DNA from: a virus
DNA: 64,000 nucleotides
Reading direction: 5' to 3' (one strand)
IMG/VR virus record: IMGVR_UViG_3300036399_001571
Location: 1-64,000 of that record
The notes under the pieces are model-generated. The model was not told the DNA's origin and did no database searches. It was given only the letters and a program-made list of their open reading frames with translations. The translations under genes and the position numbers were made by a program. Positions 12,058 through 48,931 of this stretch are shown here, piece by piece (positions within the stretch are counted from its first letter, which is position 1; each line of letters begins with the position of its first letter).

Positions 12058-12588
12058 GTGAATATCAATCTACTTGGGCTTGACCTCTCCTTAACGTCCA
12101 CTGGGTATTCTCATAACGGCGATACGGGTGTCATCTCAACCAGCGAAAAGGGCGTCCAAAGGCTAAGGACAATTTCTGAAACAATTAAAAAAATAGTTTT
12201 AGAAAATGATATTGATGTTGTCATTGTTGAGGGTTATTCCTTCGCATCTCGCAGTGGGCAAGCATTTTCCATTGGAGAACTTGGTGGAGTCGTGCGGCTT
12301 TGCCTGTTTGAACTAGGCGTTCCATTCGTGGAAATACCGCCAACATGTAGGGCTAAGTTTGCCACCGGAAAAGGCAACGCTTCAAAGAACGAAGTAATTT
12401 CTGCTGTTTCTGCCAAGACCGGAATCGTATGGGGGAACCCTGGGGCAGACGACAAATGTGACGCTTGGATTCTCGAAGAGATGGCTCTTGCCTTTATAGA
12501 AAAACCGAGGTTTTCTTGGCCAGCAACGAATATGTCAGCCTTAGACAAAGTAGATTGGAGCCCACTACAAGTGAAAGGCAGTACATGA
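12058..12588 (+). CDS. RuvC-like Holliday junction resolvase
   Basis: 176 residues from a GTG start. The RNase-H fold acidic residues are visible: LGLDLSLTSTGY near the N-terminus, VVIVEGYSFA in the middle, and GADDKCDAW near residue 140. Length fits phage RuvC-like resolvases, which cleave branched DNA before packaging. The stop codon overlaps the next start (ATGA at 12585). It follows directly after a terminator, so it needs its own promoter or read-through; I see no convincing one. Confidence 0.8.
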   Translation: MNINLLGLDLSLTSTGYSHNGDTGVISTSEKGVQRLRTISETIKKIVLENDIDVVIVEGYSFASRSGQAFSIGELGGVVRLCLFELGVPFVEIPPTCRAKFATGKGNASKNEVISAVSAKTGIVWGNPGADDKCDAWILEEMALAFIEKPRFSWPATNMSALDKVDWSPLQVKGST

Positions 12589-12920
12589 GAAGCGCACCTA
12601 TTAGTCAAGTTGAAATTGAACAAGAGATGCTCAGGCTCGTTGGGGAACTAGAAAAAGAAACTGAAGCATTTGAGGTTTTAGCCGTTGAGGCGGCCAAGAA
12701 AGAAGCAAGGTACAAGTCGAACTGGGCAAAGGAATATCTCGCTCGTTCTGGCTCAATCAAGGAACGTGAAGCTTGGGCCGACTATAAGCTTGATGACGTT
12801 AACTATGAATACAAGATTGCAGAGGCTCTTGTTAAAACAAAACGAGAAGCACTATTATCTTTGCGAACATCAATAGATGCAATGCGAACACTTAATGCAA
12901 ACGTGAGAGTACAGGTATGA
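12585..12920 (+). CDS. Hypothetical coiled-coil protein
   Basis: 111 residues. The start at 12585 forms an ATGA overlap with the resolvase stop; a longer upstream frame exists but would sit inside that gene. The sequence is almost wholly helical and charged with Leu/Ala heptads, and has Trp residues in KSNWAKEYL and REAWADYKL. No family recognised. It overlaps the ParB-like gene by 4 bp. Confidence 0.65.
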   Translation: MRSAPISQVEIEQEMLRLVGELEKETEAFEVLAVEAAKKEARYKSNWAKEYLARSGSIKEREAWADYKLDDVNYEYKIAEALVKTKREALLSLRTSIDAMRTLNANVRVQV

Positions 12921-13711
12921 GCGGAATACATCCTTCTTTAAAATCACTCGCCGTAGACATCGACACTCTTGACTATCTTGAGGGGAATCCGCGAATAGGA
13001 AATGTTGAAGCAATCATGGCTTCATACTCAGAGTTCGGTCAGGTTAAGCCAATTGTCGCCAAGAAAAACGACGATGGAACTGCAACTGTTATCGCAGGTA
13101 ATCACCAACTTGAAGCAGCAGTCAATCTCGGATGGGAACAGATTGCGGTTATTTTCCTAGACGCCGACGACAAAAAAGCAATTGCTTTTGCTCTTGCCGA
13201 TAACAGGACAATGGAGCTTGGTTATACAGAACCAGAGCTCTTAACCGACATGCTTCTAGAAATTAGCGAGTACTACCCAGACCTTCTTGATGGATTGGGC
13301 TGGGACGAATTCGAACTTGCATCAATGGAAAGCGACATGATAATTGAGCAAGCAAGAATGGATAACTCCGAAGAAGAGATTCCACAGACTAGAGAACAAA
13401 TAGCAGAGCAAAAAGTTTACGACGATGCTGTTGACTCAATAAAGGGAATGGTTCAAAAAGATGATTCTGGAGAAAACAGAATCGTTGCCAATTCGAATCT
13501 AGACCATTCTGATATTGCTACTCGTGGCTCCACTATTGCTGTACCGGGCTCAGCTCCACAGGCAGCAGTTCAATACACAATTGTTTTTGATAATGCAGAC
13601 CAGCAGGCTCTGTGGTACAAATTTATCAAGTGGCTGCGTTCTGACCCAGCTGTTGACGGAGACACCACGGCAGAGAAATTGATTAACTTCATAGACCCAC
13701 ACATGCCATGA
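12917..13711 (+). CDS. ParB/Srx-type domain protein (first copy)
   Basis: 264 residues. Residues 10-110 carry the ParB N-terminal (ParB/sulfiredoxin) fold: DTLDYLEGNPR, FGQVKPIVAKK, VIAGNHQLEAAVNLGW, ALADNRTMEL. In ParB proteins this fold binds CTP, while some phage relatives act as nucleases or adaptors. The C-terminal half is acidic and unrecognised. ATGA-type overlaps link it to genes on both sides. Pairing with a PAPS-reductase-like protein recalls the IbrB/IbrA pair of E. coli. Confidence 0.8.
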   Translation: MSGIHPSLKSLAVDIDTLDYLEGNPRIGNVEAIMASYSEFGQVKPIVAKKNDDGTATVIAGNHQLEAAVNLGWEQIAVIFLDADDKKAIAFALADNRTMELGYTEPELLTDMLLEISEYYPDLLDGLGWDEFELASMESDMIIEQARMDNSEEEIPQTREQIAEQKVYDDAVDSIKGMVQKDDSGENRIVANSNLDHSDIATRGSTIAVPGSAPQAAVQYTIVFDNADQQALWYKFIKWLRSDPAVDGDTTAEKLINFIDPHMP

Positions 13712-14853
13712 CCAGACAAAGAATGTTCTTGAACATTTCTTGCGTGGAAGCTGCGCGCCAAAGAATCAGGCATGTCTACGACCAGTTCGACACTGTGTGC
13801 GTGCAGTTCTCTGGTGGCAAAGACTCAACGGCTGCTCTGCTATTGGCAAAGGAAGTTCACGAGGAACGTGGGCTTGGACCAGTCAAAGTTATCTTCAGAG
13901 ATGAAGAGATGGTTAGCCCAAAGACAATTGAATATGTTGAAAGAGTAAGGAACTACGACTGGGTAGATATGGAATGGTATTGCCTTCCATTCATTGCTGA
14001 AGTTTGGGTTCTTGGAAAGCGTGAACGAATCCTTCTATGGGGCGCTCTTCGCGGAAGCGAGGGCAGGTGGGTTAGAGATATGCCACCATGGGCAATCAAT
14101 GCTCAAACACTTGGATTGAATCCAGCCATGTCTCTTCCAGAGCAAACCGACTATTACACAATGCAGGGAAAGGTCGGCAACGTTGCCTTCATCACTGGTG
14201 TTCGTGCAAGTGAGTCAATGGTTCGTTATCGCTCAATTGTTCAGAAGCTTCATGAAAATTACATCGTTACTCCATACAAGCTAAAAAGAGGAATACCTCT
14301 TAAGTTCGCAAAGGTCATTTACGACTGGAATACGGATGATGTTTTCAAGTTCATAGTCGAAGAGCACGGTTCTGATTATTGCGAGTACTACGACCTTGCA
14401 GCTTTGACTGGCAGCAATACGCGAGTCGGTATCCCACTCCACTCCATTGCTATCAGAAGAATCGGAGATGTGGTTGCCACCGAACCGGAATTCTACGACA
14501 AGCTTGTTGAGTGTTTTCCGCACATTGACGCTCAAAGAAGAATATGGAAAGACTTCGATGTTGAGAAGTTGATTTCTAAGTATGCCAAGGATGGTTTTAC
14601 TGGTGCATCCAACTTCATCAATGATTTTATTATTGGCGAAGAAGCAGCTCGGTCTGCAAGAACTTTCGTTGCGAAGTTTAGGCAGAAGCACGCTATAGAC
14701 CCAGGCGGGTATCCACTCAATTATCTAATTAGAACTCTTCTCCTAAACCAGTTTGACTCAAACTCACCGACACCAGTTGGCCCCAAAACAAAAGCTCATG
14801 CCGTAAGAACCATTGAATCGACGGAGGAACAAAGTGAAACATTTGAATATTAA
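13708..14853 (+). CDS. PAPS-reductase/PP-loop family protein
   Basis: 381 residues. The PP-loop SGGKDST sits at residues 35-41, as in PAPS reductases and other adenylating enzymes of the adenine nucleotide alpha-hydrolase fold. RGSEGRW, ITGVRASESMVRYRS and PLKFAKVIYDW fit the phage/IbrA-type subgroup. It lies between two ParB-fold genes with overlapping ends on both sides, so the three proteins probably act together. True sulfate reduction is unlikely; possible roles are adenylation or thiolation of nucleic acid, or regulation. Confidence 0.8.
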   Translation: MTRQRMFLNISCVEAARQRIRHVYDQFDTVCVQFSGGKDSTAALLLAKEVHEERGLGPVKVIFRDEEMVSPKTIEYVERVRNYDWVDMEWYCLPFIAEVWVLGKRERILLWGALRGSEGRWVRDMPPWAINAQTLGLNPAMSLPEQTDYYTMQGKVGNVAFITGVRASESMVRYRSIVQKLHENYIVTPYKLKRGIPLKFAKVIYDWNTDDVFKFIVEEHGSDYCEYYDLAALTGSNTRVGIPLHSIAIRRIGDVVATEPEFYDKLVECFPHIDAQRRIWKDFDVEKLISKYAKDGFTGASNFINDFIIGEEAARSARTFVAKFRQKHAIDPGGYPLNYLIRTLLLNQFDSNSPTPVGPKTKAHAVRTIESTEEQSETFEY

Positions 14854-15391
14854 TTACGTAAAGGCAAGCGACTTAAAGATTCCGGAATGGAAGGCAACGC
14901 ACATACTCCGTCCAGACTTGCTTGTCTTGTCTGCATCGCTAATGGAATTTGGTTTTATTGAGCCAATCCACATCCGGGCATCAACCAAGGAAGTTATAGA
15001 CGGAAGCGAAAGACTCAGACTGGCCATGAATGTTTCAAGAATTGCCGATGCTCATGGGGACATGATTCCAGTCATCGAGCACGATTGCGATGGTCTGACC
15101 GCAATGATGATGCATCTACGCCTAAACAGGGGGCGCGGAAACCTGGTTTCAAAGAAGATTTCCAACATAGTACGGAAGCTAAAGCAGTCTGGAAAATACA
15201 ATCGCCATGATTTTGATTTGCTTTTGTGCATGAAGACTGACGAGCTTGAGGTAATGTTAGAGGCGTCAATCATCAAGACGAGAAACATAGCTGAACACAC
15301 GTACTCCCGTGCTTGGGTCCCAATTGAGGCTCCTGCAGGAACAGTGGACAGCGAGCCAGTTGTAGAAAGACCACCGAATCCGGATAGGTGA
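14834..15391 (+). CDS. ParB-like domain protein (second copy)
   Basis: 185 residues from a GTG at 14834 preceded by GGAGGA; a TTG 21 nt upstream lacks a ribosome site. ParB-type pieces are present: SASLMEFGFIEPIHIR, EVIDGSERLRLAMN and MMMHLRLNRGRGNLVSKK. The C-terminal part is helical with a short Pro-rich tail. It overlaps the PP-loop gene by 20 bp. It differs clearly from the first ParB-like protein, so this is not a recent duplication. Confidence 0.75.
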   Translation: MKHLNINYVKASDLKIPEWKATHILRPDLLVLSASLMEFGFIEPIHIRASTKEVIDGSERLRLAMNVSRIADAHGDMIPVIEHDCDGLTAMMMHLRLNRGRGNLVSKKISNIVRKLKQSGKYNRHDFDLLLCMKTDELEVMLEASIIKTRNIAEHTYSRAWVPIEAPAGTVDSEPVVERPPNPDR

Positions 15392-15441: not shown

Positions 15442-15894
15442 ATGCCACAGCCAATTCAAGGACCAACGCTTGCTGAAGTAGCTTTGAATCGAAGAGAAAA
15501 TGAAAAACTTGTTAAAGCGAGGGGTGTTCTTTCCAAAGACGGCAGGGACAGACTGAAGAAGGCGCTGAAAGCTCCAGACATGACTGGTGCCACTCAGAGA
15601 GAAAAAGCCAGACAAAGACAGATAGCCAGGGAACTCAAGAAGTACAGAACAGGAGCAAAGGGCGCTCCGTCGACACGAAAAGCCAACGCTCTTTTCAACG
15701 AGTCTGGAAGAATTGGCGCAAGAGCAAGAAAACGAGCAGCTGAAAAAACAGCAGCAGCAGCCAAGAAGGCAAAGAAGGCCAAGAAAGCCGCTAAGAAGGC
15801 ACCCGCCAAAAAGGCTGCTAAAAAGGCTCCAGCCAAGAAAGCAGCCAAGAAGGCAGCACGACCAGTTAAGAAAGCAGCCAAGAAAAGTCGCTAG
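15442..15894 (+). CDS. Histone-H1-like Lys/Ala-rich DNA-binding protein
   Basis: 150 residues. The N-terminal 90 residues are basic and helical. The C-terminal 50 residues are a repeated KKA/PAKKAAKK tail, like eukaryotic histone H1 and the C-terminal tails of actinobacterial HU proteins. It probably binds DNA non-specifically. It has its own candidate promoter and sits between the ParB cassette and the neck genes. Possible roles are nucleoid takeover, DNA condensation for packaging, or protection of phage DNA. The repeat is low-complexity, so homology cannot be inferred from it alone. Confidence 0.75.
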   Translation: MPQPIQGPTLAEVALNRRENEKLVKARGVLSKDGRDRLKKALKAPDMTGATQREKARQRQIARELKKYRTGAKGAPSTRKANALFNESGRIGARARKRAAEKTAAAAKKAKKAKKAAKKAPAKKAAKKAPAKKAAKKAARPVKKAAKKSR

Positions 15895-34552: not shown

Positions 34553-35212
34553 TTAATACCTGTTTCTTTCGTAAAAACCTATTTCTTTTACGAAACCAAC
34601 TACAACATACCTCACTGGTCCATCAGAAACAGTCTTTACCCCATGTTCGTACTCGCTGTTGCCAGGGAAAAATAAAAGGTCTTTTGGATTTGGTTTCAAG
34701 GCAATTTCACGATTCTTGAAGAAAATCTCCCCAGAATTGTAATCATCGTTTATATATAGTATTGAGGCATACCTGATTGACGGGTCAGTATGTTGGTCAA
34801 CATGTGATTTCAATTCCGTGCCGGGTGGCAATCTTTGCACGGTTGATAAACCGCTAAGAGTTAGAGATTGGTCGCATTCAAGTATCATTGATGACAAGCG
34901 GCGATGAATAGAGCGACAAACACCAAGATGCTCAATACCTAGTGTCTTGTCTGAAAAACCATGGGTGATTTCAAATTTTCCCTCTGCAATCAAGTTGTCA
35001 ATATCGGTTCTTCCAAACTTGAGCTTGCAAAAATTAACAACACCAGACATGTAGTGGGTTTCCCAATCTTTTTGCGTAGTGTTCTCTATTGCACTAGTTA
35101 TCGCATCTAGCTCTTCCTGTGTTATGAAATTTTTAATCCGAATCAACTCGTCGGTAATTTCTTCAAATTCCAGATTATTCAACTTGAGTTGAAGCAGAAA
35201 GTTCTCAATCAT
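34553..35212 (-). CDS. 2-oxoglutarate/Fe(II) oxygenase, prolyl-4-hydroxylase-like (C-type)
   Basis: 219 residues from the ATG at 35212, which overlaps the glycosyltransferase stop (ATGA). The iron ligands are visible as HVDQHTD (H137, D139) and YEHGV (H190), and VRYVVVG supplies the 2-oxoglutarate-binding Arg (R201). YINDDYNSGEIFF is the family core strand. Such enzymes hydroxylate Pro, Lys or other residues and small molecules using O2 and 2-oxoglutarate. Coupling to a glycosyltransferase hints at hydroxylation followed by glycosylation. Substrate unknown. Confidence 0.85.
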   Translation of the reverse strand: MIENFLLQLKLNNLEFEEITDELIRIKNFITQEELDAITSAIENTTQKDWETHYMSGVVNFCKLKFGRTDIDNLIAEGKFEITHGFSDKTLGIEHLGVCRSIHRRLSSMILECDQSLTLSGLSTVQRLPPGTELKSHVDQHTDPSIRYASILYINDDYNSGEIFFKNREIALKPNPKDLLFFPGNSEYEHGVKTVSDGPVRYVVVGFVKEIGFYERNRY

Positions 35213-35901
35213 TGGCGACACCACAAACAGTCACAATATTCCTCAACAAAATAACTATGATTCATTTGTTTTTCATTTCTAAGCCTATAATCTGTATCTG
35301 GCTTGTAGTCTCTGCTATGAGTGACATATCGCTGGTCGAATATCTGCGCCACTTTAGACCTGTTAGAAGCAACTGTTTTTCTAAATAAGTGATGTGTAGG
35401 TGTTTTTTTTGGTTTTGCATTATTTTTGAGTCTTTCTTCATTTTCTTCAAAATGTTTTTTTACGTCAGCTAAAAGACTAAGACCTATTTCACTATGTAAT
35501 TTAAGAATAAAATTACAATTGTTGGACCCAGGAAGCCCATTTACTTGGTCCCCATTTGGCAAGGCAACCATTTCTATTGTGTGGTTTAATTCATGAAGTA
35601 TTGGCTCTATATTTAATATTGGAATTGAATCCAAATCCGCATACATGCCGCCGTAAAAACAGGTCACAGAATATCTCCAGATATCCGATTGAGTCATTCC
35701 TGAATAATTGTCATATATTTCGGCCTCAATTGGAGATAGGCATAAAATATTTATTACTTCTTCGCGTCTTTCTTTGGGGTTTTTAAAACAATATTTCCAA
35801 TCTGGATATGTGTTTTTCCATAAGTTGCAGCATTTTTTGAAAGATTCATGAAGTTCTTCAAAGTCGCACTCATATGTTTGAAATATGTTTTTATTCCACA
35901 T
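35209..35901 (-). CDS. Glycosyltransferase, DXD-sugar-binding (Och1/Gly_transf_sug-like)
   Basis: 230 residues. NIFQTY at the N-terminus and IWRYSVTCFYGGMYADLDSI around residues 75-94 give the DXD motif (D89-D91) that binds nucleotide sugar via Mn2+. This arrangement is typical of the GT32-like family that includes Och1 and capsular sugar transferases. A basic C-terminal region ends with a Cys-rich tail (CDCLWCRQ). It is translationally coupled to the 2OG oxygenase downstream. The acceptor could be a phage protein, host lipopolysaccharide or modified DNA. Confidence 0.75.
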   Translation of the reverse strand: MWNKNIFQTYECDFEELHESFKKCCNLWKNTYPDWKYCFKNPKERREEVINILCLSPIEAEIYDNYSGMTQSDIWRYSVTCFYGGMYADLDSIPILNIEPILHELNHTIEMVALPNGDQVNGLPGSNNCNFILKLHSEIGLSLLADVKKHFEENEERLKNNAKPKKTPTHHLFRKTVASNRSKVAQIFDQRYVTHSRDYKPDTDYRLRNEKQMNHSYFVEEYCDCLWCRQ

Positions 35902-35930
35902 TTCAAATTCTTACACTGTTATATAATTTT

Positions 35931-36635
35931 TTATTTTGTTGTGTCATTCACATATAATCTTAACACTTTTGCTTCGTGCGAACCTATGGATTCGTTCTTC
36001 TCGTTTACTGCATCCCTGTACCAGTCGGTGAACTCTCCAGCTCGATTAAGTTTTTGCGCTGCGTACCCATAGCTCGAATTTGCTTTAAGTCTTGTGTTTT
36101 CTGGGTCCGAATAAGTTGTGATATTTATTGACGAATTATTTAAAGCAGTTAGCGATATAGGGATTATTGTGGCAATTGGTGTTCCAGCTATTATTCGTGT
36201 CTCCGCATTGGCATTTTTTGCTTTTATTGCCAGAGGTATCGGGTGGTCATAAAATGACGTGCTAATAAAGTTGGACATTGTCTCAAAATCATTATTAAAA
36301 TAATTGACTGGATTGATTGTCCAAAGACTTATGTCTTCGGCGGTTCTAAAAATTAGTCCGGTGTTTAAACTTATCGAAGACTGACCCCTGCCAGCATATG
36401 CATCAATAGGGCTTGTTATTTTTATATGGTCTGGGGTCTGGTCGTTGATTCCGTCCCATGTGAAAACTATGTCTTCTTTACAGGAGAGGCTCCACCCGAC
36501 CACATTCGCCTGCGTGACCGGGAAGCACCTATACGCATGGTTCCCTGATGTTTCGTCCATCCAGTCTCTTTTTACGGACATCTGAGAGATTTCAAAAATT
36601 GAACCGTTTGTTTTTTCAACAGAAATTTCAATCAT
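35931..36635 (-). CDS. DUF6065-like protein (copy 1)
   Basis: 234 residues. VKRDWMDETSGNHAYRCFPV, then ANVVGWSL near the N-terminus, and TGLIFRTAEDISLWTINPVN in the middle, are shared with the protein at 49466-50167 (KRDWMDNT...HAYQCLP, ANVYGWEL). I assign both to the DUF6065-like group of phage proteins. The fold is probably beta-rich and cupin-like. It overlaps the upstream K-type 2OG oxygenase by 4 bp, suggesting the two act together. Function unknown. Confidence 0.65.
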   Translation of the reverse strand: MIEISVEKTNGSIFEISQMSVKRDWMDETSGNHAYRCFPVTQANVVGWSLSCKEDIVFTWDGINDQTPDHIKITSPIDAYAGRGQSSISLNTGLIFRTAEDISLWTINPVNYFNNDFETMSNFISTSFYDHPIPLAIKAKNANAETRIIAGTPIATIIPISLTALNNSSINITTYSDPENTRLKANSSYGYAAQKLNRAGEFTDWYRDAVNEKNESIGSHEAKVLRLYVNDTTK

Positions 36636-37381
36636 TTCTCATCATTCCATTTCCTGTCGTACATATCTGGCGTATGATATTTTTTGCTGTAATCAAGCAT
36701 GGTTACGATTGAGTACTTTGTCCCTGCGGTCACCGGCATGGCTTGATGTGGGTACATGTAGTTTGACGGAAATACATAAAGGTCTCCTGCCTGTGGTTTT
36801 ATTTTTAAATTTTGCAGTCTAAAAAATAGCTCTCCGCCTTCGTAATCGTCGTTGACATATCCAACCAACGAGACCGTGCAGTTATATGAGAATCCGTGGT
36901 CTTGGTGTTCTTTGAAGTGCTGACCTGGGCCATACTTAACAAAATTCATTGCTTCCCAATACTTGAGGGACGCTATGTTGTGTTCGGAGCGATAGTCTCT
37001 GACGGCCGGAAGTGCGGAATCATAAATGTCCTGCCAAAGCGATTGTAAATTCAAGCTAACAGTGCTTTTGTCGTGTTCAATATCTGTTTTTTTAAATTTA
37101 AAATCAACACAGTCTCTGTACTCTGGCACTAATTCTTGGTATCCAACATATGCTGGCTGCCAACTATAACCAGTTGTATCGCCGACTGGTTTTAGGTTCG
37201 ATTCAATTCTATTGATAACATCAAAACTCGATTTGATTATATTTCTGTAACACTTTATGCCATGCCCAAAATCGATTTTTTCTGTCCATGTTTGCATTTG
37301 AAATGCCCTACTTGTATTTTCTTCTTGACCAAATTTTGTTTTTGTAAACCCCACCATCGGGCTGGCGGTAAAATCTTGCAT
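36632..37381 (-). CDS. 2-oxoglutarate/Fe(II) oxygenase (A-type, Lys variant)
   Basis: 249 residues. HQDHGFSYNCTVSLVGYVN carries the HxD iron ligands, YPHQAMPV the distal His, and TKYSIVTM a Lys in place of the usual 2-oxoglutarate-binding Arg, as in collagen-type prolyl hydroxylases. The long N-terminus overlaps the upstream gene by 74 bp but aligns with that of the oxygenase at 38081 (FTK...SR), so the ATG at 37381 is favoured; 37297 has a better ribosome site. Closest relatives in the window are at 38081 and 50164. The DUF6065-like gene overlaps its 3' end. Confidence 0.85.
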   Translation of the reverse strand: MQDFTASPMVGFTKTKFGQEENTSRAFQMQTWTEKIDFGHGIKCYRNIIKSSFDVINRIESNLKPVGDTTGYSWQPAYVGYQELVPEYRDCVDFKFKKTDIEHDKSTVSLNLQSLWQDIYDSALPAVRDYRSEHNIASLKYWEAMNFVKYGPGQHFKEHQDHGFSYNCTVSLVGYVNDDYEGGELFFRLQNLKIKPQAGDLYVFPSNYMYPHQAMPVTAGTKYSIVTMLDYSKKYHTPDMYDRKWNDEK

Positions 37382-38084
37382 TGTTCATGTATTTGGACTG
37401 CATTTCTTCTTGTCCCAACATTTCCACTTTGTGTTCCCAGTCTTCTCTTTTGAACGGGAAAATCTGGAGATAGGGAGTCCCAGCAGGTATTACGCCCTCC
37501 CAGCCCTCAATGAGGAAAAACGGAAAACTTCCCAGTAAATGAACCTTATCTGAGTCAACGATTCCTGTTGTGTTCAAGAATGGAAGGTCAAACCTATTCA
37601 TCGGCGTCATAAACAAGGCACTATAACCTTCTGGGAGTTCTATGCCCCAGTCAGCAAACCATGCAAAATGGTGGTCGTAATAACCCTGTGGATGTACGAA
37701 ATCCGGCATCGGCGTTCTTGGCGTGCAGAAGTTTTTATACTGACTATTTTCTACCTTGACGTCAATTAAACCTTGAGTGTTTTTGTAAAATGTCAAGTCG
37801 CAAGGAGTTTTAAAAACATATCCGGTTAAAAAGGCGTCCAGAATAGCAGGACAGGCTTTCCATGTCGGAATTTTACCGTAATCGTCTGTTGTTCCTTCTT
37901 TTGGAAATGGACAAATTTCTTTTGTTGCTTTACGGTATTCCCCGTTTAGATTTTTTTCAAAACTGTCAGCATCTTTATACCATTGTGGAGCGGCGCTTTG
38001 TGCTGCTGATGGGGCGTATTTATTTTCTTTGTCCAGCCATGGTCTATGTGGTCTGAATATTGCGATGTTGTATTGCTCGCTCAT
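37308..38084 (-). CDS. Remote DUF6065-like protein (copy 2)
   Basis: 258 residues. KIPTWKACPAILDAFLTGYV and DLTFYKN, then LPEGYSALFMTPMNRFDLPF and IPAGTPYLQIFPFKR, follow the same order as the DUF6065-like proteins at 35931 and 49466 (GW-x-L, EEGYNTWFSGSPNYF, EAGSPF), although identity is low. Related sequences are known from cyanophage-type genomes. It sits between two A-type 2OG oxygenases with which it overlaps (4 bp upstream, 74 bp downstream). Function unknown. Confidence 0.55.
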   Translation of the reverse strand: MSEQYNIAIFRPHRPWLDKENKYAPSAAQSAAPQWYKDADSFEKNLNGEYRKATKEICPFPKEGTTDDYGKIPTWKACPAILDAFLTGYVFKTPCDLTFYKNTQGLIDVKVENSQYKNFCTPRTPMPDFVHPQGYYDHHFAWFADWGIELPEGYSALFMTPMNRFDLPFLNTTGIVDSDKVHLLGSFPFFLIEGWEGVIPAGTPYLQIFPFKREDWEHKVEMLGQEEMQSKYMNNARFYRQPDGGVYKNKIWSRRKYK

Positions 38085-38794
38085 TGTTTATGCCCTAGCT
38101 TATTTATGTCGGTCATGACTACTACACAGTACTTTATGCCAGATTTTATTGGAAGTGACGCATGCTCGTAAATATAATTTGATGGAAAAATTGCAATATC
38201 CCCAACTTTTGGTTTGTGCACATAACCGTCAAGTCTTGGGAATTCAATTTCTCCACCCTCATAATCGTCGTTGATGTAGATGACGGCAGAAACAGTGCAA
38301 TTGTATGCCGGTCCATGGTCTGCATGTATATTGAAATGCTTACCCTCGCCATCGTATTTTACGAAGTTGAAAGCTTCATAGTAAACAACACTTATACCCC
38401 AGTATCTAGCATAGTCATCAATGCAAAACTTGAGTTTTTCATATATCTCTTGATGAAGGTCCAGAAGCTCGGAGTTGTGCTCGTCTCTTGGTCCTAGATT
38501 TTCTTGCTTGTATTTGAAATCGTAACAGTCTCTTGCTTTTTTTATCGGAATATTAGAATTTGTTACCTGGGCTTCGTTCCAGCTGTATTTTTTGTTCCCG
38601 GACAAATTTGACTCAAGAATCTTGATGTATCTATTTGAATCTTCAAGCGAAAAAGTATTTTGGTATATGTTTAATCCTAGTGCTGGATTTTGGGCTGTAA
38701 TTGTTTCACTGGCAGCTCGATGGATTCTATTTGACGCAGTCTCTGACCTGTCTTTTGTGAACCATGGAATTGCGTTTTCATCATAAATACTCAT
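38081..38794 (-). CDS. 2-oxoglutarate/Fe(II) oxygenase (A-type, Lys variant)
   Basis: 237 residues. HADHGPAYNCTVSAVIYIN gives the iron ligands, YEHASLP the distal His and IKYCVVVM the Lys that would bind 2-oxoglutarate. INDDYEGGEIEFP is the core strand. It is the first gene of a minus-strand operon; its start lies within a 10-bp palindrome ATACATGTAT (38793-38802) in the 40-bp divergent gap. Paralogue of 36632 and 50164. Confidence 0.85.
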   Translation of the reverse strand: MSIYDENAIPWFTKDRSETASNRIHRAASETITAQNPALGLNIYQNTFSLEDSNRYIKILESNLSGNKKYSWNEAQVTNSNIPIKKARDCYDFKYKQENLGPRDEHNSELLDLHQEIYEKLKFCIDDYARYWGISVVYYEAFNFVKYDGEGKHFNIHADHGPAYNCTVSAVIYINDDYEGGEIEFPRLDGYVHKPKVGDIAIFPSNYIYEHASLPIKSGIKYCVVVMTDINKLGHKQ

Positions 38795-38802
38795 ACATGT
38801 AT
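38793..38802. promoter_or_regulatory. Palindrome in the divergent gap, overlapping a start codon
   Basis: ATACATGTAT is self-complementary and covers the first bases of the oxygenase start on the minus strand. The two divergent genes are separated by only 40 bp, so a repressor or shared promoter here could switch both. Confidence 0.3.
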
Positions 38803-38834
38803 CTTATAGTCAGGCTCGGTGCTAGCATCGTTAC

Positions 38835-39134
38835 ATGGAATTAATAGGAACATGGTTCATAACCGCAACCTCGCCCCTGGGAAAAGAGACATATAACCTG
38901 CGTTTGAATGACGATGGTTCTGGCTCAATTTCACATGACAGGGGAATCGTGGAATTTTCAGATGCTCTAATCAGCACCTCTGACGAGTCCATGACAGTGA
39001 AGATTTGCGGCCACACAGACATACCAATGAGCGTCGACTTTCTGTGTCAATTTGAGTCAGTAGGCAAATCTCTTGCTGGATTTGTAGAAATCGGCAAATA
39101 CGCAAACATCGAAATAAACGGGGTAAAGATATGA
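38835..39134 (+). CDS. Hypothetical small beta-rich protein
   Basis: 99 residues. MELIGTWFITATSPLGKET followed by LNDDGSGSISHD and a C-terminal FVEIGKYANIEINGVK suggest a small beta-barrel (lipocalin- or calycin-like pattern), but no family is secure. It overlaps the peroxidase-like gene by 4 bp. First gene of the plus-strand segment inside the accessory island. Confidence 0.55.
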   Translation: MELIGTWFITATSPLGKETYNLRLNDDGSGSISHDRGIVEFSDALISTSDESMTVKICGHTDIPMSVDFLCQFESVGKSLAGFVEIGKYANIEINGVKI

Positions 39135-39754
39135 GCATCAAGTCAGTTTTTGATATGCCGATAAAATCTGTAGATGGAACGTTTGATGTTATGGACTCGG
39201 TTCGTGGCAAGGTTTGCTTATTCACGAACATCGTCACCAAGACTGGCTACACCCCAAAATGTAGCCCCATCTGGTCTTACGCAAGAGCTGCCAGACAATT
39301 ATGGGAGCTACAGCAGCTTCATGAAATGTTTTCAGACAAAGGTTTTAGCGTTGTGGGATTTCCGTGCAATCAGTTTGGCCAAATGGAACCATCCGACAAT
39401 GAGGATATAAGTCAATTCATATCAGAGGCCTATCCATTTGTGACTTTCCCAATTACAGAAAAAATTGAAGTAAACGGTCCGGGCGAACATAAAATATGGA
39501 GTTTCCTAAAAGGTGACACCGTTCGTGCTTTTGATGACAGCAAGGCAGATGGTTCAGATAAAGCTGCATCCGGGCAGAACCTAGCTGGACAAGCGATAAT
39601 GCGCATACCTCACAACTATGAGAAATTCATGGTTAGCAGAGAAGGTCAGCAAGTTGCGAGATTGAACTGGGCCGACCTCCCACTTGCCGAACAGCCGCTT
39701 GCAGCGGGCTCCTCATGGACCGTTATAGAGGCAGTGAAGTCTCTTGTAGGTTGA
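39131..39754 (+). CDS. Glutathione-peroxidase-like protein lacking the catalytic Cys
   Basis: 207 residues. Thioredoxin-fold signature pieces of glutathione peroxidases are clear: GFSVVGFPCNQFGQMEPS (with the conserved Gln81) and FPITEKIEVNG. The peroxidatic Cys/Sec site, normally in a VASKCG context, reads IVTKTGYT, so T38 replaces it; a Cys occurs six residues later (C44). Peroxidase activity is therefore doubtful unless C44 substitutes. An insertion of about 20 residues (DDSKADGSDKAASG) precedes the C-terminus. It could be a redox chaperone or structural relic serving the oxygenases. Confidence 0.8.
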   Translation: MSIKSVFDMPIKSVDGTFDVMDSVRGKVCLFTNIVTKTGYTPKCSPIWSYARAARQLWELQQLHEMFSDKGFSVVGFPCNQFGQMEPSDNEDISQFISEAYPFVTFPITEKIEVNGPGEHKIWSFLKGDTVRAFDDSKADGSDKAASGQNLAGQAIMRIPHNYEKFMVSREGQQVARLNWADLPLAEQPLAAGSSWTVIEAVKSLVG

Positions 39755-39756
39755 TT

Positions 39757-40755
39757 ATGAAAATGCCTTCGACCCCGACCATTGGGGCCAATGAACTTAA
39801 AGAGATAAGTGAATTAGTTGTCGAGGACCTTGGCAGTGGAATAGTCGTTTTTAGAAACGCTTTTTCCGTTGAGGACTTTATTCTCAGACATATAGACGAT
39901 TGTGCTGCAGAGGCACATAAGAGCAGATGGTCGTATGTAACCGATGAGGATGGGGTTGAATACGGGATAAACGAGGACGGCTTTAGATACCGCCTAGAAG
40001 ACGTCCCAAATGCCCCTGTAAGGCTCCTGGAGCCCGTTACAGAGGCGACAAGCCCCAATGTGGTCGAATACTTCACCTATCTTGAGGACGCAATCTACAA
40101 GTGTCTAATACGCTATACGGACATGTTTCCGCTGATAGTCGGAAGCCTCTGGTGGAGGACCAGGGGTCACATACTCAGATATGACGGTGGGGGCATTCTT
40201 GGGTGGCATCAAGACAATGACACGAACTACAAAGTGACCCAGGGTGTCAGGTATATGCCAAGGGGGCAGGTGGCGCTCCGACAGACCGCTGGAGCCCTTG
40301 CGTATTTCAACGACTGCGTTGACACTAAGGAAGAACTTGATGGCACCAACTTTTCTGGCGGCCATCTTAAGTTTGCATACCTCGGGATTGACTACAAGCC
40401 CAAAAAGGGGGACATCATTATGTTCCCTACAAACTACATATGCGCTCACGGTGTAACAAAGATGGATGGTGGCACAAGATATGCATATCTCTCGTTCTTC
40501 GGACAAGGCGGAACAGATAATGCTGCAAACATAAGAATAAAGGAAAAAGACGCGAGTATTCAATGGTGTGAGCCAGTTTGGTTCGACAACATCTATGACG
40601 ACTACGAGTTTTATTGCAAGTCTGAATACTCAATCTGGTCAAAACCAACCCCAGGTTTAGAGCTTGGCTCAAACCCTGTATTCCAAAATAGATGCGTCAC
40701 TCAATACGGCGATACGCACACTGCGCTGGAGGTGAACCAAGTTGAAACGATATGA
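39757..40755 (+). CDS. 2-oxoglutarate/Fe(II) oxygenase (B-type)
   Basis: 332 residues from the ATG at 39757 (TAGGTTGATT upstream), 2 bp after the preceding gene. N-terminal LGSGIVVFRNAF, WWRTRGHILRYDGGG, HQDNDTNY (iron ligands), CAHGVTKM (distal His) and TRYAYLSFF (Arg) are shared with the paralogues at 40742, 42982 and 43869. This B-type group is longer than the others, with a C-terminal extension. 13-bp overlap with the next gene. Confidence 0.85.
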   Translation: MKMPSTPTIGANELKEISELVVEDLGSGIVVFRNAFSVEDFILRHIDDCAAEAHKSRWSYVTDEDGVEYGINEDGFRYRLEDVPNAPVRLLEPVTEATSPNVVEYFTYLEDAIYKCLIRYTDMFPLIVGSLWWRTRGHILRYDGGGILGWHQDNDTNYKVTQGVRYMPRGQVALRQTAGALAYFNDCVDTKEELDGTNFSGGHLKFAYLGIDYKPKKGDIIMFPTNYICAHGVTKMDGGTRYAYLSFFGQGGTDNAANIRIKEKDASIQWCEPVWFDNIYDDYEFYCKSEYSIWSKPTPGLELGSNPVFQNRCVTQYGDTHTALEVNQVETI

Positions 40756-41713
40756 GACCAGGACACTTGAAGTCACGGATGAGGTTATAGAAGAAATATC
40801 GAATCTTGAATTCACGGACCTTGGTGGAGGTGTGATTGTATTTCATAATGCAGTCGACGTTGACCTAGAAACCATGTCGAATTGGATTGACAAAAATGCT
40901 CTTGCAGCACACCAGCAAAGATGGAAGTACGACATCGACATAAATGGCGTAGTCTACGCAAAGAACGAAGATGGGAATAAGTTCTCTATCGAGCAAGTGG
41001 AGAGAGTCCCTGTAAGAGTTCTTGAGCCGGTCCAGGACCATACAGAAGAAGAAATTGTATCCGTGTTCAGAAACTGGGAAGACTGCATATACAAGTCTCT
41101 AATACGGTATGTGGATATGTTTCCACTCGTGGTTGGGACTATATGGTGGAGAAGCAGGGGACACGTTCTGAGGTACGACTCTGGAAAGTACCTGGGACTA
41201 CACAACGACAACGACACAAACTATAGAGCCACGAACGGGGAGAGGTACATCCCCTATGGTCAGCTTGGAGCCAGGCAGACAGTTGCCGTCTTGCTGTATA
41301 TAAATGACTGCGTTGCCACTCCGGACGAATTAGACGGAACGAATTACTCTGGAGGGGAGCTCTACTTCCCATACCTTGGAATTAGCCATATGGCAAAGCG
41401 TGGGGACATCATAATATTCCCAACAAATTACATTGCTTCGCACGGGGTAAACACCGTCACCGGCGGAACAAGGTACGCCTATCTTGAATTCTTTTCGCAA
41501 GGAAGCCCTGACCCAAACGCAAGGATAGAAGTCTCGGAAGAGGATGAGGTTTCCAGCTGGTGCGTTCCGCACTGGATTGATACGATTTACGATGACTACC
41601 AAAAGTACGCGTCCTCAGTTAACCCAGGTGACAGCAAAACACTCGTAAGAAATCTTGAGGGCAAAAATGGTTACATTAATCCGTTGAACATGAAAGCTGA
41701 ATCAGTTGAGTAA
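40742..41713 (+). CDS. 2-oxoglutarate/Fe(II) oxygenase (B-type)
   Basis: 323 residues from a TTG at 40742 with an excellent ribosome site GGAGGTGA six bases upstream. LGGGVIVFHNAVDV, WWRSRGHVLRYDSG, HNDNDTNY, ASHGVNTV and TRYAYLEFF parallel the upstream gene throughout, so this is a tandem duplicate that has diverged. The shared VPVRVLEPV near residue 90 marks the group. It overlaps the Rossmann-fold gene by 8 bp. Confidence 0.85.
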   Translation: MKRYETRTLEVTDEVIEEISNLEFTDLGGGVIVFHNAVDVDLETMSNWIDKNALAAHQQRWKYDIDINGVVYAKNEDGNKFSIEQVERVPVRVLEPVQDHTEEEIVSVFRNWEDCIYKSLIRYVDMFPLVVGTIWWRSRGHVLRYDSGKYLGLHNDNDTNYRATNGERYIPYGQLGARQTVAVLLYINDCVATPDELDGTNYSGGELYFPYLGISHMAKRGDIIIFPTNYIASHGVNTVTGGTRYAYLEFFSQGSPDPNARIEVSEEDEVSSWCVPHWIDTIYDDYQKYASSVNPGDSKTLVRNLEGKNGYINPLNMKAESVE

Positions 41714-42248
41714 GGTTGGAATAGTATCTCTTGGCAATATGGGTGTGACAATTGCTCACAGCGTTATTAATTCTGGGCATATTGTCCACTGGACATCAGA
41801 AGGTCGTTCTGAAACGACAGTTGCCGCAGGCAGAAAAATAAAAGATGCCATAGAACACGAGTCGGTTAAAGAACTATTTGGCTCAGTAGACATTTTCATT
41901 TGCATCGGCAGAGGTGGAGTTGCAGAGGAAACAATAGAGCTGGCAAAGAAGTACGCATTTACAGGAATATATGTAGACGGCAACAATCTCCACGGTCTAG
42001 AATCAGAACTGAATATTGCATCAATAGCGGAATCTGGCGGGATTAATTATGTGGAGGCTCTTTTCCGAGGCTATCCGCTTGGTTATGACCAAGGTGGAGG
42101 AGAGGACAAAAGAAATTTATATCTTTCAGGTCTGTGGAAGTCAGCAAAAGTGATTGAATCACTATTCGTTGACGGAATATGGAAAGTAGAAATTGTTGCA
42201 GAGTCAGCAAAAGCTTTAAACCGAACAAGATTTAAAAGACTTTTTTAA
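41706..42248 (+). CDS. Rossmann-fold NAD(P)-binding protein (6-phosphogluconate/hydroxyacid dehydrogenase-like)
   Basis: 180 residues from a TTG start. KVGIVSLGNMGVTIAHSVIN is the N-terminal nucleotide-binding motif, as in 3-hydroxyisobutyrate and 6-phosphogluconate dehydrogenases. Full enzymes have about 290 residues with a helical dimerisation domain; only the first part of that domain is present here, so the protein is short or simplified. It could act on a product made by the adjacent oxygenases. Its stop overlaps that of the converging gene by 3 bp. Confidence 0.7.
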   Translation: MSKVGIVSLGNMGVTIAHSVINSGHIVHWTSEGRSETTVAAGRKIKDAIEHESVKELFGSVDIFICIGRGGVAEETIELAKKYAFTGIYVDGNNLHGLESELNIASIAESGGINYVEALFRGYPLGYDQGGGEDKRNLYLSGLWKSAKVIESLFVDGIWKVEIVAESAKALNRTRFKRLF

Positions 42249-42985
42249 TGGTTTTGTGTTTTATGCTCGCCGACTAAAACCTGTTTTTGTTGGCTATTCA
42301 GCAAACCAACATCTGACCTGAATTTATTAACCCAATCATAAGCGCCTGGTTTATTTTCTTGGCCATTACCGTGATAAAACCACGACAGAAATGCCCAGCG
42401 CTCTCCACTTGTGACTTCATCTACTTCGTGGCAACCAATAAAATTAGATGGATATATAAGTGCGGAGCCAAACTCCGGTTTTGCATTTATTCCCCAGGTC
42501 CTGAATCTGACGTCCCCGCCTGCATAGCCATCATTTATAAAAATTGATGTTGTGAGCGTGTTGAAAGCAGGGCTTGTTGTTAGTGGTTCCAATGTTCCGG
42601 GTTTGTAAGGAATGTTGCAGTCTGAATGCGGCCCCATTCCATTGCCAGTTAGGTATCTAATTAGGTATCCATCGGTTTGACCAGTTATGCACTCCGTTGC
42701 AACAGGAAAAATTTTGCAGTACTCCACAGCAGCTGAATAAATTGCTTTTCTTAGCAATGTTGTTATCCCGAGTTCTTCTATGTCCGTGTATCTGCTTGGA
42801 GCTGCTTGCTTGCCTTGTTCGTCAAATTCATAACCACCATCACTTATAAGCTTGCCGTCAATAAGCGAATAACCCTGAGGAATCTTTGCATTGGCTATAT
42901 GCAGCAATTCGTTTTCGTCAATTTCATCACGCTCGATTAGGCCATAAACGATGGCTATCCCATGACCCAAGTGTTTGATTTTCAT
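42245..42985 (-). CDS. 2-oxoglutarate/Fe(II) oxygenase (B-type, divergent)
   Basis: 246 residues. N-terminal IKHLGHGIAIVYGLI resembles the LGGGVVVFRNA of the B-type set. PHSDCNIPY carries HxD, GCHEVDEV the distal His and ERWAFLSWFYHG the Arg, here followed by Trp rather than Tyr. YLIRYLTGNGMG replaces the RGH-LRY segment. It overlaps the upstream paralogue by 4 bp and the converging dehydrogenase-like gene by 3 bp. Confidence 0.8.
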   Translation of the reverse strand: MKIKHLGHGIAIVYGLIERDEIDENELLHIANAKIPQGYSLIDGKLISDGGYEFDEQGKQAAPSRYTDIEELGITTLLRKAIYSAAVEYCKIFPVATECITGQTDGYLIRYLTGNGMGPHSDCNIPYKPGTLEPLTTSPAFNTLTTSIFINDGYAGGDVRFRTWGINAKPEFGSALIYPSNFIGCHEVDEVTSGERWAFLSWFYHGNGQENKPGAYDWVNKFRSDVGLLNSQQKQVLVGEHKTQNH

Positions 42986-43872
42986 GCGTGTTCACCCATT
43001 GCCAGTCGATATGTATTAGAAGATTTTTCCTCGCCAACCGATTCCAGATATTCAATAAATCTTTCCCTGAGATGCGGGATATAAACATTGGAGGATACAG
43101 CCGCTTTTTCTGGGTTGACGAGAGGGTCTTCAACTTCTTCGTTAACTGATGGATTTGGCGTTCCATGAGCGTACCATCCAAGATAGGTGAATCTGTTGCC
43201 TGATTCAACCGGAGTAACTTCATGCGCAGCAATATAGTTTGATGGAAACATCAAAACATCGCCTCTTCTTGGAATGTACTCAATATCCAAATATGTAAAC
43301 TTATGATGCCCACCTGTAAAGTCACCCAGCTCAAAAACTTTCTCCCCATCTAGGCAGTTACCAAAATAAACCAAACATGACAGTGTGTTTCTTGAAGCAA
43401 GCTGATGTTGAGGGTGTGGTAATCCATAAACATAGTCAACGCTCGTGTCGCTATGCTCCCCTATGAAACCCCCACACTCGGAAGAGTAATTGACTAAATG
43501 TCCTTTCACTTTCCACCATATGTTTTTGAAAACAATTGGGAACATGTGCATATATCTGAAAAGATATTTATCTTTGCATTCCTCAATAAAACAAAATAAT
43601 TCAGCTACTTCTGGTCTTGTGTCCTGGTGTACCCTAGACCCCCTTCTTGGCATTCTATCTATCCCATTTTTTGAAAAAAAATAACCACTTCTGTTAACAT
43701 ATTCTTCCAAGCCATTGTCTGGATTGATAGCCGGCTGGTACATATCGCCCATCTCTCTGTCAACAATTTCTTTAGATATTCGGTTAACGTAATCCCAATC
43801 AAGGCTTATGGCGTTACGAAATACAACAACACCACCACCAAGATGTTCGGCTTTAGAGTTGTTAAAAATCAT
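42982..43872 (-). CDS. 2-oxoglutarate/Fe(II) oxygenase (B-type)
   Basis: 296 residues. LGGGVVVFRNAISLDWDYVN, WWKVKGHLVNYSSECGGF, EHSDTSVDY, AAHEVTPV and NRFTYLGWYAHG follow the B-type order, with HxD, distal His and Arg all present. YLDIEYIPRRGDVLMFPSNY is the conserved barrel strand. It sits in a 4-bp-overlap chain with genes on both sides. A C-terminal 60-residue tail is variable. Confidence 0.85.
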   Translation of the reverse strand: MIFNNSKAEHLGGGVVVFRNAISLDWDYVNRISKEIVDREMGDMYQPAINPDNGLEEYVNRSGYFFSKNGIDRMPRRGSRVHQDTRPEVAELFCFIEECKDKYLFRYMHMFPIVFKNIWWKVKGHLVNYSSECGGFIGEHSDTSVDYVYGLPHPQHQLASRNTLSCLVYFGNCLDGEKVFELGDFTGGHHKFTYLDIEYIPRRGDVLMFPSNYIAAHEVTPVESGNRFTYLGWYAHGTPNPSVNEEVEDPLVNPEKAAVSSNVYIPHLRERFIEYLESVGEEKSSNTYRLAMGEHA

Positions 43873-44729
43873 TGATGGTCATCTTTTCTTGATTTGAATG
43901 GAGTCTTTCCTGATGGTATCTTACCCTCATCACCATATTTATCCATTAAGTATTGTTCGTAGTCTTCAACTATGGTTTTCATCCACCATTGTCCACCCAC
44001 CGGCCTTTGTGCGGAATCCGTTGGCTCTTGCGGTGAGACCCCTTTGTCTTGTTGCGGGGAGCCCTGTGCAAACCACGAAAGGTATGAGTACCTAGAACCT
44101 GAAGTTACTTCTAGTATTTCATGAGCGCCCAAGTAGTTTGCTGGCATAAAAAGAATTGTTCCACTTTTAGGTTTTATGGTTATGTCAAAATACGGCAAAA
44201 CCATTTCTCCGCCAGTAAATGAATACTCATCGCAATCCGATTCATCGCAATTATCGTTTATATAGAGGAGAGCACTTATGACGTTTCTAGTGGCGTGCTC
44301 AAAAGGAGGGAAATGACCATACCTGTAGTTGACATCGTTGTCGCAGTGGAAACCCAGTTTTGAGCCAGATGGATATTTAAGTGCGTGCCCTTCGCTTTTC
44401 CACCAAAGACACTGCAGTACAGCGGGAAACATTTCTACATACTCAAGTAAGCACCTGTAGATAGCTTCTTCGCACTCTATAAAGAAACCGTGATTCAGCT
44501 CTTGAACTCTTATTGGAGTTTTTGATATTTCATTAAGTTCGTAAATAAAACCACTTTTGTTTATTGCGTGAATTGGTTTTCCGTCAATATCGTATACATA
44601 CTCATACTGTGCTTTTATGGCTGCGTCAGAAAGTTCATCTATCAGGCCTGTAATCTCCACGACTGGAACATTTACTGCATCCCTGAATACAACTACACCA
44701 CCACCGAGATTTTCCACATTGAAAGACAT
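43869..44729 (-). CDS. 2-oxoglutarate/Fe(II) oxygenase (B-type)
   Basis: 286 residues. LGGGVVVFRDAVNV, TPIRVQELNHG, WWKSEGHALKYPSG, FHCDNDVNY (HxD), GAHEILEV (His) and SRYSYLSWFAQG (Arg). First of three co-directional B-type genes (43869, 42982, 42245) joined by 4-bp overlaps, so they are expected to be co-expressed. Active-site residues are intact in all three, which argues for selection on activity. Confidence 0.85.
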   Translation of the reverse strand: MSFNVENLGGGVVVFRDAVNVPVVEITGLIDELSDAAIKAQYEYVYDIDGKPIHAINKSGFIYELNEISKTPIRVQELNHGFFIECEEAIYRCLLEYVEMFPAVLQCLWWKSEGHALKYPSGSKLGFHCDNDVNYRYGHFPPFEHATRNVISALLYINDNCDESDCDEYSFTGGEMVLPYFDITIKPKSGTILFMPANYLGAHEILEVTSGSRYSYLSWFAQGSPQQDKGVSPQEPTDSAQRPVGGQWWMKTIVEDYEQYLMDKYGDEGKIPSGKTPFKSRKDDHQ

Positions 44730-44738
44730 GTCAGTATG

Positions 44739-45389
44739 TTAGTCAGTTTTTTTAACCACCGGAGATTCTATGATTGGTCTATCCGTGTATATTCCCCAAT
44801 CTGCATTTGGGTTTACTCTGGGTTCAATTGGGCTAAGATTCATGCTTACAACAATCCTTGGACTTTCAATCATTTGCCGTGCTGTCATGTGGGTAATAAA
44901 TGAGTTAAAAATAATCAACAGTCCATCTTGCGGCTTAACAGAAATAGTGTTGTGCATATAACCACACCAGTGCGCTGAAAAAATTAAATCCGCAGAATCA
45001 AGTGGGGCAGATGGGTAGTAAGCAATAGAAAAATAGTCACCAGGGTGTGTGTGATGGTTTTTGTAATGACTGTGAGCTATCACACTCTGCCCAGGCATTA
45101 ATTTTATCGCCCATATTTCATCAATTTTGTATTTACGATTTGTTACTTCGTCAACAATTTGAACAATTAATTTTTCAAGTTTTGTGAATTCAGGTGTTAC
45201 TGGAACAACTGTATCTTCATACTGCACAAAACCACGACTTACTGAGCCATATTCTTCGCAATCTGCATTAACTGGAAAACCGTATAAGTTTATATCGGAC
45301 ACAATCTGTTCATTGTCTATGTCCAAAAGCTGCGATGTAAATATGTTTTGATTTATTAAAGGAATAGTATTTATTTTACTCATATACAA
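44739..45389 (-). CDS. Putative 2OG-Fe(II) oxygenase of the 2OG-FeII_Oxy_5 type
   Basis: 216 residues (an in-frame ATG at 45383 is an alternative start). VIAHSHYKNHHTHPGDYFS, followed by IAYYPSAP, then SVKPQDGLLIIFNSFITHM and SPRIVVSMNLSPI, match the layout of this divergent family common in cyanophages, with His-rich first motif, distal His and Arg. The first motif has HxH rather than HxD, so the metal set differs from the canonical one. It overlaps the next upstream gene by 14 bp. Confidence 0.65.
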   Translation of the reverse strand: MYMSKINTIPLINQNIFTSQLLDIDNEQIVSDINLYGFPVNADCEEYGSVSRGFVQYEDTVVPVTPEFTKLEKLIVQIVDEVTNRKYKIDEIWAIKLMPGQSVIAHSHYKNHHTHPGDYFSIAYYPSAPLDSADLIFSAHWCGYMHNTISVKPQDGLLIIFNSFITHMTARQMIESPRIVVSMNLSPIEPRVNPNADWGIYTDRPIIESPVVKKTD

Positions 45390-46047
45390 AGTTGGACATA
45401 TCTACTGGTGGGTTTGATTTCAGCCACACATTGACAACCATTACATTTCTAACCCCATACAAACAAGGGCTAGTTTGATGCACAACCCGACCTGCATCAA
45501 ATATAACCAATCGATTTTCTCTAAAGGCAATTCGCTCTCGCATCTCAATCGGGTCAATATGTTTTTTCAAATTTTCCCATTCAAGCGCATTGTGCTCACC
45601 AAAGACAAGCTTTGATTCAAAAAGCTCAAGAAACCCACCAACCACTTTTTCTTTTGATGGGCCGTAATAGACACACCCAACTTCAGGCCCGTTGTATATT
45701 TTTTTATCCTGATAAAGAAAAGTGTCTTCATCAACATGGGGTCCAAGAAACTGTCCAGCCCCAAATGTTCTTGTCCAGTACTCAAATCCAAGAACTTCAC
45801 TTATCGGCATTGGTAGATTGGTTTCCCATATCTCCCTAATGACTTGCTTCCTAAGTGTGTTGGCCGAAGAAGACCACCAACCATGCCAAAACATATAAGG
45901 TGCATAGCAGCTGGATTTTTCATCATGATAAGAGTTGAGCTCGCTAGCAATGCGTGAATCAGCTGTCATTGGACCAGGGAAAAATGATGCATCCTGGATG
46001 ATTGCTGAATAAACAGTCTCATCTATGGCGTCATCGTAAATTTTCAT
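45376..46047 (-). CDS. Putative 2OG-Fe(II) oxygenase (divergent)
   Basis: 223 residues. EYWTRTFGAGQFLGPHVDED gives HxD; RLVIFDAGRVVHQTSP gives the distal His; RNVMVVNVWLK provides a candidate Arg. The jelly-roll spacing agrees with the family, but an inserted 30-residue helical segment (HNALEWENLKKHIDPIEMRE) lies between strands. It is coupled by 4-bp overlap to the desaturase gene upstream and by 14 bp to the next oxygenase gene. Confidence 0.7.
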   Translation of the reverse strand: MKIYDDAIDETVYSAIIQDASFFPGPMTADSRIASELNSYHDEKSSCYAPYMFWHGWWSSSANTLRKQVIREIWETNLPMPISEVLGFEYWTRTFGAGQFLGPHVDEDTFLYQDKKIYNGPEVGCVYYGPSKEKVVGGFLELFESKLVFGEHNALEWENLKKHIDPIEMRERIAFRENRLVIFDAGRVVHQTSPCLYGVRNVMVVNVWLKSNPPVDMSNFVYE

Positions 46048-47560: not shown

Positions 47561-47561
47561 T

Positions 47562-48633: not shown

Positions 48634-48931
48634 TTGCTATTTCCTCCACTAATTCGTTACGGGTGAAGTCTCCAGGTTCTGTTTCTTCCCATTTTCTCTG
48701 TGGGTCATTTGACTGGAGTAGGTCGCAAAAAAAGGCAGCTCCATCTGGGAGTTCAAAGGATAAAAGCGCTGGATTCCAGCGAGGAACTTGGCTATCCCTA
48801 TTCGGGTTTTGCATTGGTTCTTGGATGAATGGATAATCCGGGTCCATATCTGGGCATATTTCATACCTCCCAGAATTTAGTGCAATTTCGACTATTGAAA
48901 TCTTCCGTGGTATTTTTGGAGCTATTTTCAT
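48623..48931 (-). CDS. Hypothetical protein
   Basis: 102 residues. Pro- and Trp-rich middle (VPRWNPALLSFELPDGAAFF) and an acidic C-terminus. No family recognised. It overlaps the next gene by 11 bp. Possibly a regulatory or structural accessory protein of the island. Confidence 0.55.
   Translation of the reverse strand: MKIAPKIPRKISIVEIALNSGRYEICPDMDPDYPFIQEPMQNPNRDSQVPRWNPALLSFELPDGAAFFCDLLQSNDPQRKWEETEPGDFTRNELVEEIANEN

Follow-up and report, generated by a model that had tools for sequence, protein, structure and literature searches.

Gene organization of the locus

The DNA analysed here, referred to as the window, is a stretch of 64,000 nucleotides taken from a virus record of 172,519 bases. 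Positions 12917-15391 of its plus strand carry three coupled genes, encoding a ParB-fold protein (A), a PP-loop protein (B), and a second ParB-fold protein (C), in that order (Table 1). The sequence-only reading had described a PP-loop protein lying between two non-identical ParB-fold proteins, with overlapping reading frames on both sides. Both points were borne out: the Pfam and phrog matches, together with the hhalign comparison (98.8%), identified A and C as different ParB-fold proteins flanking B. The A and B frames overlap by 4 nt (ATGA) and the B and C frames by 20 nt, given a start of C at the GTG codon at 14834. This codon is preceded, 6 nt upstream, by a GGAGG Shine-Dalgarno sequence (14823-14827), and was preferred to the purely mechanical TTG start of the listed open reading frame (14813).

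Table 1. Coordinates and family matches of the features described at the locus and elsewhere in the window.
Feature	Position	Strand	Characteristics
RuvC-like resolvase, heads the overlapping chain	12058-12588	+	phrog_159 2.2e-33; Pfam RuvC 1.7e-7
phrog_1389 gene, upstream neighbour	12585-12920	+	phrog_1389 1.4e-11
Gene A, ParB/sulfiredoxin-fold	12917-13711	+	264 aa; Pfam ParB_N 1.1e-6; phrog_723 7.8e-38
Gene B, PP-loop (PAPS_reduct)	13708-14853	+	381 aa; Pfam PAPS_reduct 2.8e-10; phrog_2302 4.2e-79
Gene C, IbrB-like ParB-fold	14834-15391	+	185 aa; phrog_2159 1.7e-19
Lysine-rich basic protein	15442-15894	+	no family match; module membership uncertain
Oxygenase array	34553-54189		more than 12 2OG-Fe(II) oxygenase genes (PF13640/PF13759)

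Upstream of the triple, ATGA overlaps tie the RuvC-like gene to the phrog_1389 gene, and the latter to A. Together with the overlaps between A, B, and C, these junctions indicate that the five genes probably form a single translationally coupled operon. When A, B, and C were compared with three relatives, the third codon position was by far the most variable in each gene, which points to purifying selection. The protein encoded immediately after the cassette is histone-H1-like and basic, with 21% lysine. Further downstream, the oxygenase array is interspersed with genes for a DXD glycosyltransferase, two DUF6065 proteins, an Asp/Asn beta-hydroxylase, a fatty-acid desaturase, and a glutathione peroxidase.

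Conservation of the triple and its exchangeable neighbour

Relatives of B were gathered from cultured phages, viral contigs, and bacterial genomes, and dereplicated at 80% identity, which yielded 68 loci. Neighbourhoods were surveyed with profiles on stop-to-stop ORFs, an approach used for GC-rich loci prone to shadow ORFs; six neighbour clusters (0, 1, 3, 5, 7, and 8) were discarded as antisense or out-of-frame shadows. A survey of this kind had been proposed in the sequence-only reading, which would have counted the lack of a conserved triple, along with ordinary DNA chemistry in the phage, as evidence against it; the triple turned out to be conserved. A ParB gene was present both upstream and downstream of B in 61 of the 68 loci, so the triple is a genuine module and chance is excluded. 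When the survey was anchored on C instead, B lay directly upstream in 54 of the 58 loci with room. The loci without a double ParB corresponded to contig ends, a few single contigs, or distant IbrA-type versions, the latter with only a downstream ParB in Gaia and Streptococcus phages and only an upstream ParB in Flavobacterium phages. Among these distant versions, no ParB gene was found on either side of the PP-loop gene of Hendrix, a Microbacterium phage; at this locus (L087:2619-6167), the genes ahead of it encode a glycosyltransferase, a methyltransferase, and a GNAT acetyltransferase.

The four exceptions in the C-anchored survey (L254-L257), which are relatives of the window phage, lacked A and B at the locus, with C intact and the phrog_1389-C pair kept, joined by an ATGA overlap (e.g., L255:1587-3007). 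Where the flanks were read, RuvC preceded this pair and a head gene followed it. A and B were not found elsewhere in the L255 and L257 records, in a search that had no positive control in those records. The retention of C without A and B suggests that C has some use independent of B.

Cultured carriers of the module included Arthrobacter phage Kovu, Mycobacterium phages Athena and prophi79-1, Bacillus phage 055SW001, and Rhizobium phage L338C. The module is thus not unseen, as public phages contain the family, with annotations for its individual genes; in L338C, the "DNA methyltransferase" upstream of IbrA is actually the ParB-fold A protein. Within the open-access literature, we found no paper that treats the ParB-PP-loop-ParB triple, or the alternating gene described below, as a system. 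The phrog_2302 cassettes of Kovu, Laroye, Athena, prophi79-1, and 055SW001 exhibited the same gene order as the window, with 34-37% identity in B, and those of the Arthrobacter and Mycobacterium phages adjoin the terminase.

In most lineages outside the window's clade, a further gene occupied a slot beside C, or between B and C, and encoded either a SAM-methyltransferase-like protein (phrog_11826) or a GNAT acetyltransferase. Among the 61 loci with a known slot state, 21 carried the methyltransferase, 21 the GNAT, and none both (hypergeometric P about 1e-5); the two enzymes were likewise never found together in the 189 fetched loci. This P value rose to 0.002 after thinning at 60% identity and to 0.07 at 55%, and was uninformative (0.6) at 50%. 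On the B tree, the slot switched between the two states at least 14 times, and supported sister pairs with opposite states were observed (L001/L117 and L002/L131). Kovu, for instance, carries the GNAT, 055SW001 and prophi79-1 the methyltransferase, and Athena and the window neither. The GNAT proteins were considered as possible Mom-like enzymes, but produced generic GNAT matches only, and membership in the Mom family is therefore not claimed. In a contig of a Verrucomicrobiales MAG (L101:1-1900), B and C were separated by an MT-A70-like ORF that contains a DPPW motif.

Within the window's own clade, neither slot enzyme was present in the eight loci with room (8/8), and no homologue of the slot methyltransferase or GNAT was found in the available window record. 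In most members of this clade, including the window and L040, L055, L029, L034, L037, L052, and L079, the place of the slot was taken by a lysine-rich protein. A zinc/HNH-like gene was located nearby in 39 of the 51 non-window loci. Of the 46 loci whose sequence extended 5 kb or more downstream, 34 had TerL within 6.5 kb; as the search relied on only twelve TerL seeds, this count is a minimum.

Predicted properties of the three proteins

The B protein was identified as a PP-loop ATP pyrophosphatase of the PAPS reductase/FAD synthase/CysD branch, with the motifs SGGKDS (35-40), D65, E67, GxRxxES (164-170), DW (206-207), YC..YD (224-229), and R239. Invariant residues in 45 homologues were R19, SGGKDS 35-40, D65, E67, W111, R123, G164, R166, E169, R173, D206-W207, D211, Y228, and R239, which correspond to the ATP pyrophosphatase site and its surroundings. 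The sole widely conserved cysteine, C225 (42 of the 45 homologues), lies within a YC.LYD motif that is also found in human FAD synthase. An ECGLH-type motif, with its catalytic C-terminal cysteine, was absent from all 45 homologues, among which there was also no conserved set or pair of Fe-S cysteines. None of the NCBIfam PAPS reductase models reached even 0.1 for the window protein, and other NCBIfam models remained far below their cut-offs. B lacks the reductase cysteine as well as any set of cysteines that could hold an Fe-S cluster. It is therefore not a PAPS reductase and not a DndC, and sulfur reduction or Fe-S-dependent sulfur transfer by this protein is not supported.

An AlphaFold2 model of B (pLDDT 89) and the family profile both gave PAPS reductases, FAD synthases, and CysD as the closest solved structures. 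The TM-scores of the structure matches were modest (0.3-0.6). FAD synthase and CysD transfer AMP from ATP onto FMN and sulfate, respectively, and B resembles the PAPS domain of FAD synthase and CysD in its PP-loop and DW motif, and also has the YC.LYD motif in common with FAD synthase. It differs from these enzymes in its C-terminal half and in belonging to a phage operon with ParB proteins. Based on this kinship, B is predicted to adenylylate a substrate.

The profile of the A family matched Noc/Spo0J (2e-14), and A carries a family-specific C-terminal region (Y220-FD-QQ-W-F-L). In the window protein, Box II reads G61-N-H-Q64, and the NTP-binding arginine is therefore gone, with the ParB fold still recognized by profile. 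Across 45 homologues, this position was an arginine in 23, and Q, T, or other residues in the rest, with GNHQ characteristic of the window clade. Other ParB-fold proteins no longer bound nucleotide once the Box II arginine had been replaced (PMC12704722), which suggests that A of the window phage probably does not bind NTP.

The C protein had no Pfam match, but its family profile matched ParB structures at 9.5e-9 (about 1e-8). Box II is intact (I55-D56-G57-x-x-R60), with IDGxxR present in 45 of 45 homologues, and N98-R99 was also invariant in these 45 sequences. In the profile alignment, a helical region of C aligned to the DNA-binding part of ParB. The AlphaFold2 model (pLDDT 87) matched ParB with bound CDP or CTP analogues (6sdk/7bnr). 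C is also 26% identical to a Streptococcus phage IbrB over 164 aa. The neighbouring genes that were scanned included no ParA, and a ParABS partition system was rejected on this basis.

Candidate functions of the cassette

The cassette works like the IbrA/IbrB pair, to which it is partly related: B is a distant IbrA-type PP-loop protein, followed directly by the IbrB-type ParB-fold protein C. It differs from this pair by the additional ParB-fold gene upstream and, in most lineages, by the exchangeable methyltransferase/GNAT gene. The earlier remark that two ParB partners exceed the IbrA/IbrB pair was correct, as the IbrA-type loci of Gaia and Streptococcus phages have a single ParB. Identity of B to the Streptococcus, Gaia, and Flavobacterium versions is only 27-29%.

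The gene identities, their linkage, residue conservation, model-level folds, the either/or slot, and terminase proximity are directly established. We propose a modification module because, beside packaging genes, a conserved ATP enzyme occurs together with two ParB-fold proteins, one of them nucleotide-binding and equipped with a DNA-binding part, and with a methyl- or acyl-transferase that is interchangeable between lineages. We give an even chance to the view that the cassette serves to modify nucleic acid in an ATP-dependent manner and targets phage DNA near packaging. In this scheme, B would consume ATP in adenylylating its substrate, for which a phosphate-bearing group of DNA or of a nucleotide is the most likely candidate; C would be the nucleotide-binding subunit whose helical DNA-binding part loads or guides B on DNA; and A, which has lost the nucleotide-binding arginine here, would be a ParB-fold partner with a probably structural or targeting role. 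A fourth, interchangeable enzyme, either a methyltransferase or a GNAT acyltransferase, may complete the product in most other lineages, and the window phage would carry a minimal form of the cassette. We infer that DNA is the target and that the purpose is protection from host restriction. A more specific and only tentative version, which we consider rather doubtful, is a putative, hitherto undescribed route of DNA hypermodification: a PP-loop enzyme guided by ParB would produce an adenylylated DNA or nucleotide intermediate to be decorated by exchangeable methyl- or acyl-transferases, the window representing a minimal version without a decorator. The missing slot enzymes in the window clade, the retention of C without B in L254-L257, the weakening of the slot statistics when loci are thinned, and the modest TM-scores of the structure matches all count against the modification reading. 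Of the three roles put forward in the sequence-only reading (DNA modification, anti-restriction, and regulation), DNA modification was the best supported, with that support coming from context only: the methyltransferase/GNAT slot, the nearby terminase, and the ParB/HTH-like C protein.

The GNAT and the phrog_11826 methyltransferase could instead act on protein or small molecules. An unlikely alternative along these lines is that the cassette modifies a small molecule, a protein, or the virion, independently of DNA, with the ParB proteins as SerK-like kinases on a metabolite adenylylated by B. The ParB-fold protein SerK phosphorylates free serine (PMC5120207), IbrB-type C proteins had a weak NCBIfam SerK match, and the GNAT partners would fit such a pathway, as would the ectoine-synthase/ParB fusion adjoining B in phage Gaia; terminase proximity and the ParB-like DNA-binding region of C argue against it. 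In this Mycobacterium phage (L088:4971-7207), the fusion joins an ectoine synthase domain (EctC; Pfam 1.3e-32) to the ParB partner located next to the IbrA-type protein.

It is quite unlikely that, in line with the original description of IbrA/IbrB, the cassette is a transcriptional co-activator or regulator of phage genes, with C binding DNA and B as an accessory ATPase. Such a role would be consistent with the distant relationship of B and C to IbrA/IbrB (27% identity to Streptococcus phage IbrA for B and 26% to IbrB for C) and with the activation of prophage eib genes by IbrAB (Sandt et al. 2002, cited in PMC10434257). ParB-fold precedents also exist in VirB and Noc, which are CTP-dependent regulators (PMC12704722). 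However, regulation would leave unexplained both the strict conservation of the full ATP pyrophosphatase active site and the alternating methyltransferase/GNAT partner.

The same slot enzymes are not accounted for by anti-restriction or exclusion through a ParB-type nuclease/NTPase to which B supplies a regulatory nucleotide, a proposal that we consider improbable. Several ParB-fold proteins nick DNA in an NTP-regulated manner (reviewed in PMC5512222), and the cassette sits among DNA-processing genes (RuvC, HNH, Cas4-like); however, no nuclease motif was identified in the cassette, and A is without the Box II arginine.

Phosphorothioate modification by a Dnd/Ssp-like route, raised in the sequence-only reading, is very unlikely. 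B shares the PP-loop PAPS_reduct domain with DndC, SspD, and BrxP, to which it had weak PADLOC matches (NCBIfam DndC 3.7e-4, far below cut-off), and a ParB-fold partner, DndB, likewise occurs in the Dnd locus. DndC, however, requires an Fe-S cluster (C280; PMC11662687), whereas B has no conserved cysteine pair, nor the reductase cysteine, and its single C225 is shared with FAD synthase. Furthermore, no cysteine desulfurase, DndD/E, SspB, or other Dnd/Ssp gene was found among the 46 main proteins outside the window and the Pfam-scanned window proteins, a set that excludes small ORFs in a record that is possibly a fragment. Phosphorothioation was rejected on these two grounds, the cysteines and the missing partner genes.

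A true PAPS reductase in assimilatory sulfur metabolism (a cysH auxiliary gene) is suggested by the family database name (phrog_2302, category "moron, auxiliary metabolic gene") but was rejected as exceedingly improbable, given the missing catalytic cysteine (0 of 45 homologues with an ECGLH-type motif), scores far below the NCBIfam PAPS reductase cut-offs, and the operon shared with two ParB genes. In PMC9301287, viral cysH appears among the auxiliary metabolic genes conserved worldwide and is interpreted as part of sulfur cycling. As a large phrog_2302-type phage family with a cysH-like name is found without the reductase cysteine and in a ParB operon, some viral cysH counts may describe another function.

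Phage CmoX/CmoY loci are responsible for cytosine carboxymethylation, and a ParBc gene often accompanies DNA-modification enzymes (PMC12783734); these loci use other enzymes, and no PP-loop PAPS-type protein appears in the passages of that paper considered here. Should the proposed module indeed modify DNA, cultured phages of Arthrobacter, Bacillus subtilis, and Mycobacterium smegmatis would make it possible to test a kind of phage DNA chemistry that is widespread and seemingly untested, and the methyltransferase version could be compared directly with the GNAT version.

The sequence GATATCAGATTTACAAAA is absent from the window but was observed in fourteen exact copies elsewhere in the record, between L092:14797 and L094:2037 (about 98.8-126.0 kb of the record). 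These copies sit among small, mostly minus-strand genes, and the sequence resembles a phage promoter or regulatory element present in repeated copies.
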